Part shown: positions 53,074 through 63,036 of the stretch, piece by piece | Numbering within the stretch: the first letter of the stretch is position 1 | Layout: every line of letters starts with the position of its first letter | Source: Campylobacterales bacterium | Lineage (GTDB): Bacteria; Campylobacterota; Campylobacteria; Campylobacterales; Sulfurimonadaceae | Assembly (NCBI GenBank): GCA_016938735.1 | Contig: JAFGUB010000028.1 | Span: 1 to 64,000, forward strand | Length of the DNA: 64,000 bases | Direction of reading: 5' to 3' | The notes under the pieces: generated by a model | Databases searched by the model: none | Seen by the model: only the letters and a program-made list of their open reading frames with translations | Told to the model about the DNA's origin: nothing | Made by a program: the position numbers and the translations under genes

Positions 53074-54003
53074 ATGCTCAAAGTCGGCAGCAATGAGATG
53101 GAGCTGGTAGACTTTCGTATTTTCCGTATGATCGGAGATGAGGTATATGAGGGAATTTACGGCGTGAACGTCGCCAAAGTGCGCGAAATCATCCGTATGC
53201 CCAAACTCACTGAACTTCCGGGGGTTCCTGCGTTTATCGAAGGGATCTTCGATCTGCGCGGCGTGGTGATTCCGGTGGTGAATCTGGCTAAATGGATGGG
53301 GGTGGAGACGCCCAAAAGCGTCACCGGCAAAAGCACCCGCGTGATCATTACCGAGTTCAACAATATCTTGATCGGCTTTGTCGTACATGACGCTAAGCGT
53401 ATCCGCCGGATTAACTGGAAAGATATTGAACCCGCTTCGTTTGCTTCGGGTATGGGGGCGCTCGATGGCAGTAAGATTACCGGCGTCACGAGAATTGAAA
53501 ACGACTCCGTGCTGCTGATACTCGATCTGGAGACCGTGGTGCAGGAGTTGGGCTTGTATACGCCCGATCATGGCCAAGTCCCACGTGAAGAGTACCGTTT
53601 TAGCGGTTTGGTACTCCTGCTTGATGACAGCGGTACGGCGCGCAAGATCATCAAAGAGGCGCTTGAAAAGATGGGGCTCAATGTGGTCGAAGCGCAAGAC
53701 GGTCAAGAGGGTTTACACCGTTTAGAGGAGCTCTATGGTCTCTATGGCGAGGGGCTCGGCCGACAGCTTAAGCTGATTGTCTCGGATGTTGAGATGCCGC
53801 TCATGGACGGGTTTCATTTCTCGGCTAAGGTCAAGGCGGATGAGCGGTTTAAAAAGATTCCGATCGTCTTCAACTCTTCCATCAGCGACCATTTCAGCGA
53901 GATTCGCGGAAAAGACGCCGGAGGCGAAGCCTATTTGGTCAAGTTCGACGCAAATGTATTTTATGATGAAGTGGCGCGGGTGATCCGTCAGCACATCGCT
54001 TAG
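53074..54003 (+). CDS. cheV: Chemotaxis coupling protein CheV
   Basis: The 309-residue CheV has an N-terminal CheW-like domain (SNEMELVDFRIF, FIEGIFDLRGVVIPVVNLAKWMG) and a C-terminal receiver (VLLLDDSGTARKIIKEAL, IVSDVEMPLMDGFHF). The first ATG is at 53074, but TAAGGAG is placed for an in-frame ATA at 53059 that would add five residues as in related CheV proteins. The gene leads cheV-cheA-cheW. No TACATGTA lies in the set. Confidence 0.93.
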   Translation: MLKVGSNEMELVDFRIFRMIGDEVYEGIYGVNVAKVREIIRMPKLTELPGVPAFIEGIFDLRGVVIPVVNLAKWMGVETPKSVTGKSTRVIITEFNNILIGFVVHDAKRIRRINWKDIEPASFASGMGALDGSKITGVTRIENDSVLLILDLETVVQELGLYTPDHGQVPREEYRFSGLVLLLDDSGTARKIIKEALEKMGLNVVEAQDGQEGLHRLEELYGLYGEGLGRQLKLIVSDVEMPLMDGFHFSAKVKADERFKKIPIVFNSSISDHFSEIRGKDAGGEAYLVKFDANVFYDEVARVIRQHIA

Positions 54004-54014
54004 GGGGTTGGATT

Positions 54015-56432
54015 ATGGATGAATTTCAAGAGATACTGCAAGACTTTTTGGTTGAATCCTTTGAGCTGATCGAGCAACTCGATCAGGATTTGGTGTTGCT
54101 CGAATCCTCACCGGATGATTTGGAGCTACTTAACCGAATTTTTCGTGTTGCGCACACCGTCAAAGGGGCGAGTTCGTTTCTGAACTTTGATGTGCTGACC
54201 CATCTGACGCACCATATGGAGAATATTCTCAATCTAGCGCGCCATGGTGATCTGCGCATTACGCCCGACATTATGGACGTGATCTTAGCGTCGATCGACT
54301 TGATGAAGGGGCTGCTGGAGCAGATCCGCGACAGCGGCTCGGATCAGGGACTGGATGTCTCTGAGTGTGTCGTGCGTCTTGACCGCGCGGCCGGAGGCAG
54401 CGGAGAGGTGGCGCATGCCGCAGCACCCAAAGCGATAGAAAAAGCTCCTGAACCCGTCGTGGCGGCTGCACCCCAGATACCGCAGGCAAATGACGATGAG
54501 ATCGACTATGCCAACTTGAGCGAAGCAGAGATCGAAGCGGAGATTGAACGTCTACTGGCGATGCGTCAGGCCGAAGACCGCGCTAAAAGAGAGGCAAAGA
54601 AAACGGAAACAGCGTTTGAGCCGGAGCCTCAAATAGAGGAGGAGTTTGACTTTATGCCGCAAAGCGAGCCTGTTCGTGCTGCGCCACCTCCACCACCCCC
54701 GCCACCTCCACCCCCACCGCCAAAAGCTCCCACTGCACCCAGAGGTGGTGGCGCTTCGAATGACCGCGATGATGGAGACAAGCGTTCTGCTACCGCCGTT
54801 GAGCAGACCATCCGCGTGGATGTCAAACGGCTTGACCATTTGATGAACCTGATCGGCGAGTTGGTACTTGGCAAGAACCGTCTGATTAAGATCAATGACG
54901 ATGTAGTGGAGCGCTACGAGGGCGAGGAATTCCTAGAGGAGCTCAATCAGGTCGTCTCGATCGTATCGCTGGTGACGACCGATTTGCAAATCGCGGTCAT
55001 GAAGACCCGTATGCTGCCGATCGGTAAAGTCTTTAACAAATTTCCCCGTATGATCCGAGACCTCTCCAGAGATTTGGGTAAAAAGATCGAGCTTGAGATC
55101 GGCGGAGAAGAGACGGAGCTGGATAAATCGATCGTCGAGGAGATCGGCGATCCGCTGGTGCATATTATTCGCAACTCTTGCGATCACGGTATCGAAAGTA
55201 CGGCGCAGCGGATTGCGGCAGGTAAAAATGAGACCGGCGTGATTCATTTGCGCGCCTACAACGAGGGTAACCATATTGTCATTCAAATCGCCGATGACGG
55301 TAAGGGACTGGATGTTGATTTGCTCAAAATGAAGTCGCTGGAGAAGGGGATCATCTCCGAAAAAGAGGCTGAAACCATGAGCGACAAAGAGGCATTCGGG
55401 CTGATTTTCCGTCCGGGCCTCTCAACCGCAAAGCAGGTGACCAACGTTTCGGGTCGCGGCGTGGGAATGGACGTTGTGAAAACCAACATCGAAAAGCTCA
55501 ACGGTATTATTGATATCGAGTCTGAGGTCGATGTAGGGACGACTATCAATTTGAAGATTCCGCTCACATTAGCGATCATTCAGGCGTTGCTGGTCGGGGT
55601 GCAAGAGGAGTATTACGCTATTCCTCTGGCTTCGGTTTTGGAGACGGTGCGCATCACCAAAGATGAGATTTATACCGTTGAAAGCCGCTCTGTCATGCGT
55701 CTGCGCGAAGAGGTGCTCTCTTTGGTGCATATCGGCGACATCTTTGAAGTCGAGCGGGTATTTGACGGTAGCGAGCACGCTTATGTCGTGGTGCTGGGGC
55801 TGGCCGAGAGTAAAATCGGTCTGATCGTCGATTCGTTGGTGGGCCAAGAGGAGATCGTTATTAAATCTCTGGGCGAATACCTTAAAGGCATTGACGGTAT
55901 CGCTGGAGCGACCATTCGAGGTGACGGCGGCGTGACGCTGATTGTGGATGTTGCGGCGCTGATGCAGATGGCCAAGTCGGTCAAATCAACCATCGGGCAA
56001 GAGAGCGGATCGCAAAAGAGTGCGCTCAAAGAGAAGACGCAGCCTAGCGACTACTGCGTGATGATCGTGGACGACTCCAAAACCGACCGCACCATCATGC
56101 GTACCTCGCTCGCACCGCTGGGAATCACGCTCATTGAGGCCACCGACGGTGTCGAAGCGCTCAATATTCTCAAAGCGGGCGATCATAACTTCGACGCGAT
56201 GCTCATCGATATCGAGATGCCGCGTATGGACGGCTACTCGTTGGCCACCGAGATTAAGAAGTACAATAAATACAAAAATATGCCGCTGATCGCCGTGACC
56301 TCACGCAGCGGCAAATCGGACCGTATGCGCGGTGTCGAGTCGGGGATGGTAGAGTATATCACCAAACCTTACTCGCCCGATTATCTGATGAACGTCGTTA
56401 AACGCAACATCAAATTCACGATGGGGGCCTAA
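54015..56432 (+). CDS. cheA: Chemotaxis histidine kinase CheA with C-terminal receiver (CheAY type)
   Basis: The 805-residue protein has an HPt domain with phospho-His 47 (FRVAHTVKGASSF), a linker with about 13 Pro in a row near residues 222-234, the dimerisation and ATPase core (GEEFLEELNQV, NSCDHGIESTAQR, GVGMDVVKTNIEKLNG), a CheW-like domain and a receiver (CVMIVDDSKTDRTIMRTSL, LIDIEMPRMDGYS). The fused receiver is typical of this phylum. It takes input from MCPs, including the PYP-MCP here by inference. Confidence 0.96.
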   Translation: MDEFQEILQDFLVESFELIEQLDQDLVLLESSPDDLELLNRIFRVAHTVKGASSFLNFDVLTHLTHHMENILNLARHGDLRITPDIMDVILASIDLMKGLLEQIRDSGSDQGLDVSECVVRLDRAAGGSGEVAHAAAPKAIEKAPEPVVAAAPQIPQANDDEIDYANLSEAEIEAEIERLLAMRQAEDRAKREAKKTETAFEPEPQIEEEFDFMPQSEPVRAAPPPPPPPPPPPPPKAPTAPRGGGASNDRDDGDKRSATAVEQTIRVDVKRLDHLMNLIGELVLGKNRLIKINDDVVERYEGEEFLEELNQVVSIVSLVTTDLQIAVMKTRMLPIGKVFNKFPRMIRDLSRDLGKKIELEIGGEETELDKSIVEEIGDPLVHIIRNSCDHGIESTAQRIAAGKNETGVIHLRAYNEGNHIVIQIADDGKGLDVDLLKMKSLEKGIISEKEAETMSDKEAFGLIFRPGLSTAKQVTNVSGRGVGMDVVKTNIEKLNGIIDIESEVDVGTTINLKIPLTLAIIQALLVGVQEEYYAIPLASVLETVRITKDEIYTVESRSVMRLREEVLSLVHIGDIFEVERVFDGSEHAYVVVLGLAESKIGLIVDSLVGQEEIVIKSLGEYLKGIDGIAGATIRGDGGVTLIVDVAALMQMAKSVKSTIGQESGSQKSALKEKTQPSDYCVMIVDDSKTDRTIMRTSLAPLGITLIEATDGVEALNILKAGDHNFDAMLIDIEMPRMDGYSLATEIKKYNKYKNMPLIAVTSRSGKSDRMRGVESGMVEYITKPYSPDYLMNVVKRNIKFTMGA

Positions 56433-56434
56433 CC

Positions 56435-56926
56435 ATGAGCGATAAGCTTCAAAGCATCATTAACAAGCAAAAAACGCAGCAGTCAACCGATGTGAACATC
56501 GAGGAGATTGTGCAGCTTGTCGGCTTCATTGTCGGCGACGAGGAGTTCAGTGTGCCCATACTCTCCATTCAGGAGATCATTAAACCGATCTCATGGACGC
56601 GCGTACCGCAGACGCCCAAGTACATTTTAGGTGTCTTCAACCTGCGCGGTTCGGTGATTCCGTTGATCGATCTGCGACTTAAATTCGGTCTGCCGCCGGC
56701 AAAACACACCGAAGAGACCCGCTTTATTGTGATCAAACACGCCGAAGAGGTGGCGGGCTTTGTGATCGATCGGCTCACCGAGGCGATACGCATCAAAAAA
56801 CGCGATATCGGCCCCGCACCCGAGACCATCCTCGAAGAGAAAAGCATGATTGAAGGGGTCGGCAAAAAGCAAGACCGCATCTTGACGATTCTTAAAGTCA
56901 ACAAACTTCTTGAGCGCGACTTTTAA
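56435..56926 (+). CDS. cheW: Chemotaxis coupling protein CheW
   Basis: The 163-residue single CheW domain has LVGFIVGDEEFSVPILSIQEIIK and VPQTPKYILGVFNLRGSVIPLIDLRLKFG, then IDRLTEAIRIKKRDIGP. It couples MCPs to CheA. It starts two bases after the cheA stop. Confidence 0.94.
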   Translation: MSDKLQSIINKQKTQQSTDVNIEEIVQLVGFIVGDEEFSVPILSIQEIIKPISWTRVPQTPKYILGVFNLRGSVIPLIDLRLKFGLPPAKHTEETRFIVIKHAEEVAGFVIDRLTEAIRIKKRDIGPAPETILEEKSMIEGVGKKQDRILTILKVNKLLERDF

Positions 56927-56944: not shown

Positions 56945-58252
56945 ATGAACGCTCCGCTTTATCACCAACGTCGAACGCAATGCCTAGAGCTGATGCAAGA
57001 AGGGCTAGCCGTTTGGTGCGCGGCCGCTGCGCAAACACGATCCAACGATACCGAGTTTCCCTTCAGGCAAGAGAGCAACTTCTACTACCTCAGCGGTCTG
57101 CGCGAAGAGGGTGCTGTGATCGTACTGTACAAAAGTCCCACGCAGCGCCGCTCAATCTTGTTTATCAAAGAGCCAAGCGAACAAGAGAAGCTCTGGGTGG
57201 GCGGCGGTATGGGGGTTGAGCGTGCCAAAGCGCAGACGGGATTTGAGGAGGTCTTCGACGTCGTTTCGTTTGAACCGATGATGGCTGATCTACTCAAAAA
57301 TATGCCGCTGCTCTATCTTGATCTTTTTGGCGAGAATGCCCATCTCTCCACACTTCGCGCTACATGTAAAGTCCTAATCCATCAGCGCGGTGTGCAGCGT
57401 TCGCCGCGTACCTTTAGCGATGCCCATCAGCTTACCCAGCGTCTGCGCCTTATCAAGTCCGATGAAGAGATCCTTCTGATCCGCAGGGCGATTGCGATCA
57501 CTGCTCTAGCGCATGAGGCCGCCATGTGCCTTGCAAAAGCGGGTATGTTCGAGGATGAGATCAGCACCGAGATCGACTATATTTTTGCCCGCAACAAAGC
57601 CCGTGCAAAAGCATATGAGAGCATTGTCGCCGGAGGCGATCGGGCCAACACCCTGCACTATATCGCCAACGATCAGGTGCTTGAAGCGGGGACTCTCCTG
57701 CTGATTGACGCGGGATGCGAATGGGAGATGTACGCCAGCGATATCACCCGAACCTTTCCCGTAGGAGGCCGTTTTTTGCCGCCGCAACGCGCGCTTTATG
57801 CCATGGTGCTAGAGGTGCAAGAACGCATTATTGCCATGATAGCGCCCGGCGTACGCAAAAAGGAGCTGCAAAGTGCGGCGGAGCGATGGCTTTGTGAGGG
57901 GATGGTCACGCTTGGTATTTTGCAAGGCGAGTGCGACGCGCTGATCGAAGCCAAGGCGCATAAAAAGTATTTTCCCCACGGTATCGGCCATTGGTTGGGG
58001 CTGGATGTACACGATCCCTGCCCTTACGTCGATGCGCAGGGCGAAGAGATCCCTTTTGTACCGGGAATGGTGCTTACCATCGAGCCGGGGATTTACATCC
58101 GCGCCGATGATACGGAGGTGCCTGAATGTTACCGCGGCATCGGTATACGCATCGAAGATGATGTTCTGATCACGCCTGAGGGGTGCGAAAACCTCTCCGC
58201 CGCAATTCCTAAAAGTATCGAAGCGATTGAAGCGCTTACATGTAAGGATTAG
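56945..58252 (+). CDS. pepP: Xaa-Pro aminopeptidase, M24B family
   Basis: The 435-residue protein has an N-terminal aminopeptidase P domain (NDTEFPFRQESNFYYLSGL) and the pita-bread catalytic domain with metal ligands in LLIDAGCEWEMYASDITRTFP, HGIGHWLGLDVHD, MVLTIEPGIYI and GIRIEDDVLI. It removes N-terminal residues before proline. The C-terminus (EALTCKD) is encoded by a TTACATGTAAGG copy at 58236-58247. The final bases overlap the convergent gene by four. Confidence 0.93.
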   Translation: MNAPLYHQRRTQCLELMQEGLAVWCAAAAQTRSNDTEFPFRQESNFYYLSGLREEGAVIVLYKSPTQRRSILFIKEPSEQEKLWVGGGMGVERAKAQTGFEEVFDVVSFEPMMADLLKNMPLLYLDLFGENAHLSTLRATCKVLIHQRGVQRSPRTFSDAHQLTQRLRLIKSDEEILLIRRAIAITALAHEAAMCLAKAGMFEDEISTEIDYIFARNKARAKAYESIVAGGDRANTLHYIANDQVLEAGTLLLIDAGCEWEMYASDITRTFPVGGRFLPPQRALYAMVLEVQERIIAMIAPGVRKKELQSAAERWLCEGMVTLGILQGECDALIEAKAHKKYFPHGIGHWLGLDVHDPCPYVDAQGEEIPFVPGMVLTIEPGIYIRADDTEVPECYRGIGIRIEDDVLITPEGCENLSAAIPKSIEAIEALTCKD

Positions 58253-58674
58253 CTGTAGCTATAGCTCCAGCCGGTCTGCCCCTCTACTTTCACCTCATGA
58301 AACCCCTTGGCATCGCCTAGAAAATCGATCACATAGAGCGGAACATTGGGGATACTCTGCTGATCCTCCGTTTTAAACAGATGCATCGGCATGAGGGTTG
58401 CTTTGTCGGTCTGCGCAAATGCGACCGGAGCGATTTCGCTCATGATGTCGGCGGTTTTGGTGATCTCGTATTGGTCACAGAACTTTTCAAAGACCGCCTC
58501 TTTAACCCCTGAGGGCAGAGGTGTATGGGTATTGAGAAAAATGGTGAAGTGAATGGGCAGCTCGTAGCGCGTCTTGGGCGCGGGTTGCGCCAAAATGATG
58601 TACTCCACACCGTGTAGGTGGGCAACAATGTCTGCAACGCTAAGGTGATGATGGGTTTTGATAGCACCGAACAT
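58249..58674 (-). CDS. Unknown protein, last gene of the PYP-MCP operon
   Basis: The 141-residue soluble protein starts at 58674, two bases after the previous gene's stop, with AGGAG overlapping that stop. It is His-rich at the start (THHHLSVADIVAHLHG), with a YELPIHFTIFLNTHTPLP segment that looks like a beta-strand and an internal Cys. No motif is recognised. Its place as the fifth gene of the operon suggests a role linked to the light receptor, but nothing in the sequence proves it. Confidence 0.6.
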   Translation of the reverse strand: MFGAIKTHHHLSVADIVAHLHGVEYIILAQPAPKTRYELPIHFTIFLNTHTPLPSGVKEAVFEKFCDQYEITKTADIMSEIAPVAFAQTDKATLMPMHLFKTEDQQSIPNVPLYVIDFLGDAKGFHEVKVEGQTGWSYSYS

Positions 58675-58676
58675 GG

Positions 58677-59156
58677 CTACTCCTGAAGCAGTTTTTTGAG
58701 AATATCGGCGAGGCCGAGGTGGAGGTTGTAGTTTGAGATGGGAAAATCGACCATTTCACGATGCAGATCGACGGAGTAGCCATGCAGATACTCCTGCAAA
58801 GGTTTTAGATCGATGGTCTCATAGTGTGCGGTTGCGGCAGGATCGAGCTTTGTTGCTTCCAGTGCCCCTTTGAGATTGCTGCGCTGAAGCAAAAAATAAA
58901 GCATACGCAGAGAGTAGAGGTCGCACCAACGTAAAAAGAGTGCGGCGTCGAGCTTTGCGGCGGGTTTGCCCTCGGGAGTGAAGAGGAGATTTTGGTCTCT
59001 TAACGGTAGCAGCACGCTTAAAACCGCTGCACATAAAGGCAGAATTTTGGGTCGCCAAAAGGGGGATTCGTTTCCGCGCACAAGGGCGCTTTGAAGGGCT
59101 TGCAGGATCTCTTCGTGTGTGTCATGGCTAAGAATGTGGGAGATGGGTTTTAGCAT
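58677..59156 (-). CDS. Unknown helical protein in the PYP-MCP operon
   Basis: The 159-residue protein starts 11 bases after the ammonia-lyase stop. It is predicted mainly helical, with a hydrophobic stretch LPLCAAVLSVLLPLRD near residues 38-53 and a region LRWCDLYSLRMLYFLLQ. The block SPFWRPKILPL is faintly reminiscent of conjugation or type IV secretion ATPase segments, but too weak to name. Function unknown; operon membership points to the light-receptor pathway. Confidence 0.6.
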   Translation of the reverse strand: MLKPISHILSHDTHEEILQALQSALVRGNESPFWRPKILPLCAAVLSVLLPLRDQNLLFTPEGKPAAKLDAALFLRWCDLYSLRMLYFLLQRSNLKGALEATKLDPAATAHYETIDLKPLQEYLHGYSVDLHREMVDFPISNYNLHLGLADILKKLLQE

Positions 59157-59167
59157 GGATGCTCGCT

Positions 59168-60715
59168 TTAAATGGGTTTGATTGTGTCGTTATGGTAGCA
59201 AAAAGGCTCTTGCTTGATCCACGCCGTAACGGCATGAATATCGTGATCCATTCTGCGGTCTTCAAGCAGCGGCGGCGCGATGGATCGGATGGAGTCGTGC
59301 AGCCATCTTAAAGCTTTGGAGCAGTGCGTGGGGGTGATGATATCCACCCCTTGAGCAATCCCAAGCAGGGCAATGGCGTAGATCTGTTGCAGCGTTTCGA
59401 TCTGCTCTAAAAAACGCAGCCCGGCTGTGGTGCCCATGCTGACCTTGTCTTGATTGAGCGACTCGGTGGGTCTGGAGTGGATGCTCGCGGCGGTGGTATT
59501 CATGATGACATCGCCGCAGAGTGAACTTAAAGTGATCTGCATCGCTTTAAAGCCGTGGTTGATCGTTTGATCCATACGTCTCAAGTCAGCACCGAGTTCT
59601 CCGTTGAACTTGCCATCAAAGAGTAAAGCACACTGCTTATCAACCAGATCGGCCAGATTGGCCGCGGCGATACGGACGCTGTCCATGGCCTGCGCCACAT
59701 GACCGCCATAGAAGTTGCCTCCGAAATGGACTGTGGCGTTGGAGGTGTCGATGAGCGGATTGTCGCTGGCACTGTTGATCTCGATCTCTATCCATTGGGT
59801 TGCCATGTCGGCGGTGTCGCGAACCATACCGATGATTTGCGGTGCGCAGCGCAGGCTGTAGCGGTCTTGAATATTGTGCGCGGCTTTGTGATGGAAATGC
59901 TTTTGGCGCATCTGCATGTTTTGAGTGCGCGTGGCGCCATGGAGTAAAGAGCGGATATTGTGGGCTGCCTCTATTTGGCCTTTGAACGGCTTTTGTTCGT
60001 GTATGAAGGCTGTCACTGCTCCGCTGTCGGCGCGCAGCAGCTCATAAAGCGCCGCCGTGATGCGCTCGGCGCAGGCGATAAGGGTTTTGAAGCGCTTGAG
60101 TGCGACGGTGGCAATGGCGCTCATCACGGCGGTTCCGTTCATGATCGCTAGCGCCTCTTTGGCTTCAAAATGCCACGGCTCGATCCCAAGACGCGCAAAA
60201 AGTTCGGCTGCTTGGTATTGGGTGTTTTGATAGCTGACCTCACGCTCGCCTGCCATCACGGCGGCGACATAAGAGAGCGGCGTCAGGTCTCCGCTCGCGC
60301 CCACTGAACCCAAAGAGGGGATGCAAGGATAGATTTTTTCGCCGATGAGCCGCGCCAAAAATGAAAGTAAACCGTAGCGCACGCCTGAAACCCCTTTGCA
60401 AAGACTGATCAGGCGGATGATCATCACCATGCGGACGATCTCCTCTTCAAGAAGCGCTCCCAAACCGCATCCGTGAAAGCGGTAGAGTGATTGTTGCAGC
60501 GCTGTCCGCGCATCTTGCGGAATGTAGCGGTTCCCATTTTCGCCAAAACCGGTATTGACGCCATAAATCACCATGCCCTGCTCAAGCAGCGTATGCAAAA
60601 TGCGATGGGCGGCGTTGATCTGTTCTTGAAACAAGACGCTATCATCAAGGGTAATGGTGCTGCAGGACTGCAGCTGTGCCATACTCACATGGCTGCCATC
60701 GATGTGTAGGGTCAT
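59168..60715 (-). CDS. Aromatic amino acid ammonia-lyase (HAL/PAL/TAL family), probable tyrosine ammonia-lyase
   Basis: The 515-residue protein contains the MIO-forming triad Ala140-Ser141-Gly142 in GSVGASGDLTPLSYVAAVMAGE, YGVNTGFGENGN at 51-62 and NQDKVSMGTTAGLRFLEQIE. Substrate-selectivity residues in SLYRFHGCG (Arg79-Phe80-His81) are neither the SH of typical histidine lyases nor the HH of Rhodobacter TAL. Operon partners, a PYP-bearing MCP and an acyl-activating enzyme, make L-tyrosine to p-coumarate the expected reaction; cinnamate or urocanate is not excluded. It overlaps the ligase gene (ATGA). Confidence 0.85.
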   Translation of the reverse strand: MTLHIDGSHVSMAQLQSCSTITLDDSVLFQEQINAAHRILHTLLEQGMVIYGVNTGFGENGNRYIPQDARTALQQSLYRFHGCGLGALLEEEIVRMVMIIRLISLCKGVSGVRYGLLSFLARLIGEKIYPCIPSLGSVGASGDLTPLSYVAAVMAGEREVSYQNTQYQAAELFARLGIEPWHFEAKEALAIMNGTAVMSAIATVALKRFKTLIACAERITAALYELLRADSGAVTAFIHEQKPFKGQIEAAHNIRSLLHGATRTQNMQMRQKHFHHKAAHNIQDRYSLRCAPQIIGMVRDTADMATQWIEIEINSASDNPLIDTSNATVHFGGNFYGGHVAQAMDSVRIAAANLADLVDKQCALLFDGKFNGELGADLRRMDQTINHGFKAMQITLSSLCGDVIMNTTAASIHSRPTESLNQDKVSMGTTAGLRFLEQIETLQQIYAIALLGIAQGVDIITPTHCSKALRWLHDSIRSIAPPLLEDRRMDHDIHAVTAWIKQEPFCYHNDTIKPI

Positions 60716-61593
60716 GCGGGATAGACCTTGTAGCCGCGTACCTTTTCGGCTCCGTCACGTCTTGCACCGACATAGAAGTGGGTGGCATCGACCCACGTGA
60801 GGTGGTCTTGGAGGGTGTCGCGCTCTTTTTGTGTCGGAAAGAGGGTGTAGGGCTCTTGGGGGTCGTTGCGGTAGCCTACGCCTAAAGTTTCGGTAGCGCC
60901 GTAGATCTCATAAATGCGCGCTGCGCCGCGCTCAAGCAGTCGCGCGTGGGTTGCGGGTGCTAGGGCCTGGGTGGAGCTGATGAGGGTGGTGTGCGGCGTG
61001 AAGCGTGCATCGATACGCTCAAGCAGATCGTAAAGGGTCGGTGTGGAGATGATAAAACTGTTGGGCTTGGTGTCGAAAAAAGCGCGCGAGGGCATCAGCT
61101 CTAAGCGGACAATGGGGCGTTTGAGTGCTTTTGGGAGCAAGATGGCGTACAAAAATCCATAAACGTGATGCAGGCGTACCGCGCTGTAAAGCTGCGTGGA
61201 TGAAGAGAAGAGCGACGCTAAAAACGCTACTTCATTCCACAAAGCGTCATAGCGATGCGTCACGGCCTTGGGTGCGCCTGTGCTCCCTTTGGTGTGAAAG
61301 GTGATGGTTTCACGATAAAGATCCAAGCTGTCAAGGATGATGTTGCACCAGCTTTTAAGCGTAGGATAACGCAGCAGCAGATCTTCAAGACCGGACTCAT
61401 AGAGGCCGAAAAATTGGCTCACCTGTGCCGCAAATTGCACCAGATCGAGTGAGTCAAATCCCATTTCGCGCAGGGGCTGCTCCAGCTGGGCGTAGAGATA
61501 GGAGTGGTAGGTCTGATCTTTATTGCTTCGATGCTCGCTTAGCATCGATTGCAAAAGGAGTGTAACCTCCTGTTCGCTTAAAACGGGGGGCAT
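60712..61593 (-). CDS. ACP fused to a minimal AMP-ligase domain, predicted p-coumarate-activating enzyme
   Basis: The protein is 293 residues from the ATG at 61593 (a TTG three bases earlier is possible). Residues 1-85 are an acyl carrier protein-like domain with a phosphopantetheine Ser in GFDSLDLVQFAAQV (about Ser48). From residue 96 comes an ANL core: ITFHTKGSTGAPK (P-loop) and IYEIYGATETLG. It ends at EKVRGYKVYPA, exactly where the C-terminal lid with its catalytic Lys would begin. Both the N-terminal ANL subdomain and the lid are missing compared with 4-coumarate-CoA ligases of about 500 residues or more. Predicted to load a hydroxycinnamate onto its own ACP. Confidence 0.75.
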   Translation of the reverse strand: MPPVLSEQEVTLLLQSMLSEHRSNKDQTYHSYLYAQLEQPLREMGFDSLDLVQFAAQVSQFFGLYESGLEDLLLRYPTLKSWCNIILDSLDLYRETITFHTKGSTGAPKAVTHRYDALWNEVAFLASLFSSSTQLYSAVRLHHVYGFLYAILLPKALKRPIVRLELMPSRAFFDTKPNSFIISTPTLYDLLERIDARFTPHTTLISSTQALAPATHARLLERGAARIYEIYGATETLGVGYRNDPQEPYTLFPTQKERDTLQDHLTWVDATHFYVGARRDGAEKVRGYKVYPA

Positions 61594-61596
61594 CAA

Positions 61597-63036
61597 TCAG
61601 ATGCGTTTAACAAAGACCCAATAGCTGTTTTTGGTCGGATCTTGTTTCATTTGAACTTTGACGCGGGTAGGGCGCATGTTGTAGTCGAAGGTGTACTCAA
61701 AGAGGGCATTGAGCGATCCTCGATCGATTCCCTCTTTGAAGCGGCCATAAAATTCGGGCGAGTTGGTACACGGCGCAACATCTCTAAAGAAGTTTTTGCC
61801 TACGGCTTGCGAGGGATCACGCCCTGTTATGTCGCCTTCGACGGCGTTGTACTGCAAAATTGTGCCGTTACGGTCTAGTTCTACGGCGCCAAACGCCAGT
61901 TTGTCGAGCTCCTCTTTACTCATTTTGCTGAGTTTATTGGTGAGATCCCCAGCGTCAAAACGGATCACTTCAGTACGTTGCATGCGGGCATAGCCCTCTG
62001 ACGCGCTGCCGCTTGAGCTGACGTGCGTTACCCAATCATCTACAATATCGTTAACTTTGACCGCGATGGTATCGGCGTCGCTGGCAGCTTGAGTGGAGTC
62101 GTGCGTGCTCGATTGGAGGGTCTGCATTGAGGTGTTGATGTCGTCAAGGCTGCTGGTTTGATCCTGAATTTTGTGGTTGATATCGGTCATTGATTGAATC
62201 AGGCTTTGAACGCTCATGCTGATGTCCGAGAGGCTTTTTTGGGTCTTTTCGGCCAGTTTACGCACCTCATCGGCAACCACCGCAAACCCGCGTCCATGTT
62301 CGCCGGCACGCGCCGCTTCGATGGCTGCGTTGAGGGCAAGCAGGTTGGTCTGATCGGCGATATCGCTGATGACGTTGATGACTGATTTGATCTCTTCAGA
62401 TTGTGAGGTGATGTGTCCGGACTGACTGGCGATGTCTTCGATGCTGCTGTGTAAAACAATCAATGCCGAAGAGCTGCTCTGGAGTGACTGGGCCTGGTTG
62501 GTAATGATGTGACTCAGCGAGGAGACGATACGGGTGAGATTGGCAGCTTCATGTTTAAGCTGATGAAGTTGTGTCGTGTCAACTTTTTTAGATTCTGCGC
62601 ACTGCTCTTCAATCTTTTGAATAAATGATGCTGTAGAAGGATACTCTTCTAAAACGGCACCAGCGTTTCCTCTGGAGAGCTGTTTGAATGCTTCGGTGAC
62701 GCGGTCTTTGGCGAGTTGGCGTGCATTGGTATCAGCATGTTCTATAAGCTCTTGTAATTTCGGTAACTCTGTTTTGATACTCTGTTGGCGTGCAAAAGCC
62801 TCGGAAACCTCTTGAATCTGCCGATGCATTTTAGTTAGCTGTTCTTTTTGGGTCGATAGTTCTTGCGTGAGTGAGGGAACTTTTTGAGCCTCAGCCGCCA
62901 ATGATACCAAGCCGCCAATGGCAGTGATCAGTCCGATACCTACAACGATCCACATAGCTAAACCACCTATTTGCACTGCCAAAATTGTTCCAGCCAGTAG
63001 CAATAAAACCCCAATTCCCGATAAAATAATTCCCAT
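61597..63036 (-). CDS. Methyl-accepting chemotaxis protein with C-terminal photoactive yellow protein domain
   Basis: The 479-residue protein starts with two short membrane helices (about 2-20 and 26-46), then coiled coil, then the conserved MCP hairpin tip ([40 protein letters not shown]). Residues 357-479 align with Halorhodospira PYP without gaps: Tyr396, Glu400, Thr404 and Arg406 in [15 protein letters not shown] match Tyr42, Glu46, Thr50 and Arg52, and Cys423 in [11 protein letters not shown] matches the chromophore Cys69. It should bind p-coumarate and respond to blue light. No periplasmic sensor domain exists. First gene of a five-gene operon. Confidence 0.93.

Follow-up and report, generated by a model that had tools for sequence, protein, structure and literature searches.

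On the reverse strand of the window, the whole stretch of 64,000 nucleotides analysed here, three adjoining genes encode a fusion of a chemoreceptor with the blue-light receptor PYP (MCP-PYP), a short p-coumarate ligase of the PYP type (Pcl) and an aromatic amino acid ammonia-lyase. Their features are as follows.

61597-63036, minus strand: MCP-PYP fusion with its C-terminal PYP domain at 61600-61971 (TIGR02373, 172.1 bits against a cut-off of 143.05; MCPsignal)
60712-61596, minus strand: lid-less PYP p-coumarate ligase of the TIGR02372 lineage (ORF of 294 codons from TTG)
61312-61596, minus strand: N-terminal carrier-like (ACP/PP-binding) domain of the ligase, residues 1-95 (Pfam, AlphaFold2 helices, profile-profile match)
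61450-61452, minus strand: Ser49 codon of GFDSLD, the predicted phosphopantetheine site (conservation in PYP-linked Pcls)
60712-61311, minus strand: short ANL core, residues 96-294, reaching to motif A8, plus the stop codon (AMP-binding, 47.7 bits)
61267-61293, minus strand: A3 P-loop TKGSTGAPK, residues 102-110 (alignment)
60889-60903, minus strand: A5 motif YGATE, residues 232-236 (alignment)
59168-60715, minus strand: aromatic amino acid ammonia-lyase, presumed TAL (Lyase_aromatic, E=7.8e-147)

The ligase starts within a few bases of the MCP-PYP stop, which links it directly to a pyp gene, and its stop codon and the lyase start codon overlap (ATGA), so that the three genes look like a tight operon. 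Counted from the ATG at 61593, the start used in the original prediction, the ligase has 293 codons (60712-61593). PYP is a model photoreceptor, and the attachment of its chromophore is described as a two-enzyme route via coenzyme A, for which Pcl arms p-coumaric acid; in ANL enzymes the lid normally bears the catalytic lysine.

The MCP-PYP protein consists of a hydrophobic N-terminus of transmembrane type (helices judged by eye), an MCP signalling domain and the C-terminal PYP domain, in which the equivalents of Tyr42, Glu46 and Cys69 are found; Pfam detects no ligand-binding domain in it. It is probably a phototaxis receptor. Its PYP domain lies at the chemoreceptor C-terminus, as in the MCP-PYP fusions of Methylomicrobium and Nitrincola described in a survey that counts 12 such fusions and places less than 1% of PYP homologues in Campylobacterota (PMC12826048). 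The same type of MCP-PYP is also present at L143 and L144. At the site that we take to be the selectivity position of TAL, the PYP-linked lyases of the window, L046, L060, L096 and L144 have a motif of the FHGCG/YHGCG type, and those of L031, L058 and L064 have HL. Elsewhere in the window (53074-56926) the order cheV-cheA-cheW is found, an arrangement known from Campylobacterota.

Descent and domain layout of the ligase

Judged by its sequence, the ligase descends from the family of PYP p-coumarate ligases, TIGR02372, by far its best NCBIfam match (E=4e-47), with residues 15-294 covering positions 12-311 of the 386 in the model. As this match takes in the N-terminal carrier-like domain, that domain belongs to the known family. 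The score of 160.7 bits lies under the equivalog cut-off of 334.7, and model positions 311-386 are absent. The protein ends at A8 (...KVRGYKVYPA), precisely where the original prediction had placed the missing start of the lid, and no continuation of a lid downstream of A8 is present in any reading frame of the window. It does not have the complete two-domain ANL fold with a lid and an A10 lysine, and because of this absence we class it as a Pcl-derived variant and not as a full member.

What remains of the enzyme agrees with the predicted ACP-like domain bearing GFDSLD and the ANL motifs of the P-loop and YGATE. The PP-binding profile (PF00550) matches residues 38-85 with 27.6 bits, above the Pfam cut-off of 20.8, and GFDSLD occupies residues 46-51, its serine being Ser49. 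AMP-binding matches residues 101-248 and enters the Pfam profile only at position 169 of 384. In the alignment, all residues of the ANL nucleotide site (G104, G107, Y232, E236, D264 and R279) are kept, Asp264 belonging to motif A7 and Arg279 to A8.

To place this layout, we compared it with Pcls from plasmids and with 80 Pcl-like loci from genomes, 74 of which have a PYP gene within the retrieved DNA. They share a carrier-like domain and a short ANL core, and nearly all have a lid ending in LP..xxGK..DW. The usual Pcl (TIGR02372; annotated pcl in Indioceanicola profundi, L031) thus has the same carrier-like domain, the same missing N-terminal ANL subdomain, the same P-loop, A5, A7 and A8 motifs and the same pyp/TAL neighbourhood, but carries the C-terminal lid that the window ligase lacks altogether. 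Since plasmid and genomic Pcls share the layout of carrier and short ANL core, the window ligase is the ordinary Pcl plan minus the lid. The earlier claim that an ACP plus a minimal ANL enzyme stands here in place of a full ligase therefore falls; the N-terminal ANL subdomain is indeed missing, as had been claimed, but this is a family-wide trait, as is the carrier domain, and the novelty of the window ligase is its missing lid. ANL cores of a similarly short type occur in the MenE-like PRK07824, which matches 35 of 56 Pcls, and in PDB 4gs5. These are named CoA synthetases or ligases, and we know of no fused carrier domain in them.

Structure prediction is consistent with this anatomy. With the three same-family relatives described below left out of the alignments, the AlphaFold2 model of the window ligase as a single chain reached a pLDDT of 91.1 and a pTM of 0.89, and that of the lidded Marinospirillum Pcl 94.6 and 0.89. 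Helices 8-24, 49-63, 73-76 and 80-93 of the window model follow the ACP order, with Ser49 opening helix II, so that the DSL serine takes the place in the helical bundle that is typical of a carrier domain. Fold searches with both models led to ANL enzymes, the best match of the window model being the short ligase 4gs5 (350 residues).

The carrier serine is present in 85 of 85 PYP-linked Pcls, and the A10 lysine in 78 of these, the seven without it including L118, where the gene is frameshifted. Three Pcl-like homologues with no PYP nearby (L067, L111 and L117) have lost the serine. Since the three fall into one group, with L111 and L117 almost the same in sequence, we count this as one event; all are Pcl-like ANL proteins of Thermodesulfobacteriota. 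Across a 33-row alignment of the carrier domain, Asp48 and Ser49 are the sole invariant positions. A profile search of the PDB with this domain placed ACPs at the top but weakly (E=0.017), with noise such as T4 lysozyme among the matches, and for this reason we turned to a profile-profile comparison with shuffled controls. Against AcpP of related genomes it gave P=8e-5, a value that did not change when the four same-family rows were left out, compared with 0.21-0.62 for column-shuffled controls. Single-sequence Pfam scans find PP-binding in only 2 of 56 Pcl members at E<=0.01, and the domain may therefore have been overlooked so far. In the literature outside subscription papers, as far as its available text goes, PYP and phosphopantetheine were named together only by one paper, which reviews naringenin biosynthesis and has an abstract unrelated to Pcl. 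The genome of the window (G000) encodes a PPTase of the AcpS type. TIGR00517 detected no canonical AcpP in this genome (best score 22 bits), nor in the single congener that was searched, though nearly all other relatives have one; the absence is probably an assembly gap.

Loss of the A10 lysine in same-family relatives

PYP is found in 4 of 228 genomes of the window's family and in 2 of 397 genomes sampled across the phylum. In the four same-family genomes, which represent three genera, PYP, Pcl and lyase occur together in differing arrangements, G382 having only a 3' fragment of the lyase. Apart from the window, these are G382 (L040), G494 (L143) and G455 (L144), in each of which a Pcl of 354 aa adjoins PYP; the neighbour is an MCP-PYP in G494 and G455 and, as far as seen, a PYP ORF alone in G382. 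The three Pcls are 40-41% identical to that of the window and have the carrier serine, and all lack the A10 lysine. They keep a lid stub of about 58 residues that ends before this lysine, with ..PDK(I/V)IW(L/I)EV in G382 and G494 and ..PDSIVWIDR in G455, and the window ligase has lost even the stub. The search for homologues sharing the truncation, proposed with the original prediction, thus returned relatives that are without the A10 lysine but less severely shortened. Together with the window the three form one clade with a support of 100/100, and no second Pcl was found in any of the four genomes. At L040 (2885-3538), the PYP ORF abuts the 3' lyase fragment in inverted orientation, possibly through misassembly or rearrangement.

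A frameshift hiding the lid, which had been named as one of the findings that would overturn the prediction, is ruled out as far as the assembly goes, as no lid exists in any frame, and the three relatives are without the A10 lysine too. By contrast, the frameshift in L118 is clear, and we left this locus aside. Nor was a stand-alone gene for the lid (AMP-binding_C) found in G000. The A10 lysine is also absent in L062 and L098, which may be independent losses; we keep them only as possible because L062 is a MAG and L098 may hold a frameshift near its end.

Between G494 and G382, dN/dS over the Pcl gene is 0.13 and differs little among carrier, core and lid stub, and the Pcl genes of these two relatives are under purifying selection. 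The window has no close relative and its synonymous sites are saturated, so that here only the amino-acid-changing difference is used: for Pcl it amounts to 0.44 between the window and G494, against 0.36 between G455 and G494, and for the lyase to 0.36 and 0.28, respectively. The divergence of the window Pcl therefore about matches that of its lyase and, within the limit set by this saturation, shows no sign of extra relaxation.

Possible routes of p-coumarate to the receptor

In our judgement there is an even chance that the lid-less core adenylates slowly, loads the phosphopantetheine of its fused carrier and passes the acyl group on to the PYP cysteine. Counted for this carrier route are the near-full-length homology to TIGR02372 including the N-terminal domain, the linkage of PYP, Pcl and lyase in four genomes, the conservation of the serine together with its loss in the three homologues without PYP nearby, and the AcpS-type PPTase. 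The same holds for the single clade devoid of the A10 lysine, for the finding of no second Pcl in the four genomes and no stand-alone lid gene in G000, for the low dN/dS between two relatives, for the lyase-like divergence of the window Pcl and for the ACP-like helix order of a confident model. The scarcity of Pfam PP-binding matches among Pcls and the weak ACP signal in the PDB profile search count against it. The lyase would first convert tyrosine to p-coumarate, from which the core, with its P-loop, A5, A7 and A8 contacts kept, would slowly form p-coumaroyl-AMP. The phosphopantetheine arm predicted on Ser49 would then take up the acyl group, as the lid that helps to place CoA is gone, and would hand it to the cysteine of the co-encoded MCP-PYP. 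A tethered arm could in this way replace the lid and the free CoA used by CoA ligases. In aryl-CoA ligases, the A10 lysine has been described as the key residue for catalysing adenylation (PMC8388817), and its luciferase equivalent K529 as essential for adenylation, with K529 mutants giving less adenylate than the K443A mutant (PMC8631863). Its absence could therefore leave the core with little or no activity. Nevertheless, the retained contacts make slow adenylation possible, and a slow rate may suffice as only one chromophore is needed per receptor.

Should a carrier route exist, it would probably serve PYP systems generally, since the usual Pcl has the same layout. We put it at somewhat below an even chance that the PYP chromophore is generally delivered from carrier-bound p-coumaroyl-phosphopantetheine and not from free p-coumaroyl-CoA, the lid-less clade then being a reduced end-state of a self-loading carrier. 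A carrier serine that never varies in 85 PYP-linked ligases, yet which domain databases pick up only weakly, suggests that an acyl-carrier step has been missed, and its presence in every PYP-linked enzyme examined means that the textbook route via coenzyme A deserves a direct test. Moreover, a natural ANL enzyme with a nucleotide site but with neither lid nor A10 lysine would offer a clean test of how far lid-free adenylation can reach, under conditions in which a single turnover per receptor suffices.

It is unlikely, though well worth weighing, that PYP is instead acylated directly by p-coumaroyl-AMP, or by p-coumaroyl-CoA made on the open lid-less core, with the carrier as a structural or docking module. 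The nucleotide site of Pcl is intact, and the activity reported for the Halorhodospira Pcl, as the survey summarises it, is formation of p-coumaroyl-CoA (PMC12826048). CoA may therefore be the real acceptor despite the carrier domain, and for the family as a whole the carrier route is to be read as a hypothesis and not as a result. Against direct acylation, a structural domain would hardly keep its DSL serine in all 85 PYP-linked enzymes while homologues lacking a PYP neighbour have lost theirs, nor would Asp48 and Ser49 be expected as its only invariant positions.

Less likely again is a core that is no longer able to adenylate, with p-coumaroyl-CoA made by another ligase and the role of the shortened Pcl confined to carrying the acyl group or transferring it to PYP. 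This would agree with the lack of the A10 lysine across the whole clade and with further AMP-binding ORFs of 547-569 aa in G000, G494 and G382, for example a FadD-like ORF of 547 aa at G000:C62. However, the P-loop glycines, Tyr232, Glu236, Asp264 and Arg279 are all retained in the clade, and in G455 (85% complete) only Pcl and one acetyl-CoA-synthetase-like sequence were matched.

We give little credence to a decaying pseudogene, with MCP-PYP loaded by some other route or never. No intact member of the set is shorter than the window Pcl, in which even the lid stub of its relatives is gone, but the overlapping operon is intact, the gene has no internal stop, the carrier and nucleotide-site residues are kept, and both the lyase-like divergence and the purifying selection in two relatives speak against decay.

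Hardly any credence is due to a split gene whose lid comes in trans from a second ORF, for example that of 141 aa at 58249-58674, in which ...PVAFAQTDKATLM superficially resembles an A10 segment by eye: we rejected both this ORF and the adjacent one of 159 aa, as conserved counterparts occur in 43 and 42, respectively, of the 80 relatives searched, while PYP is rare in the family, and no match to a lid was obtained from Pfam, NCBIfam or the PDB. The two small genes (58249-58674 and 58677-59156) are without Pfam or NCBIfam matches, and their counterparts in relatives all belong to the same family and are often neighbours.
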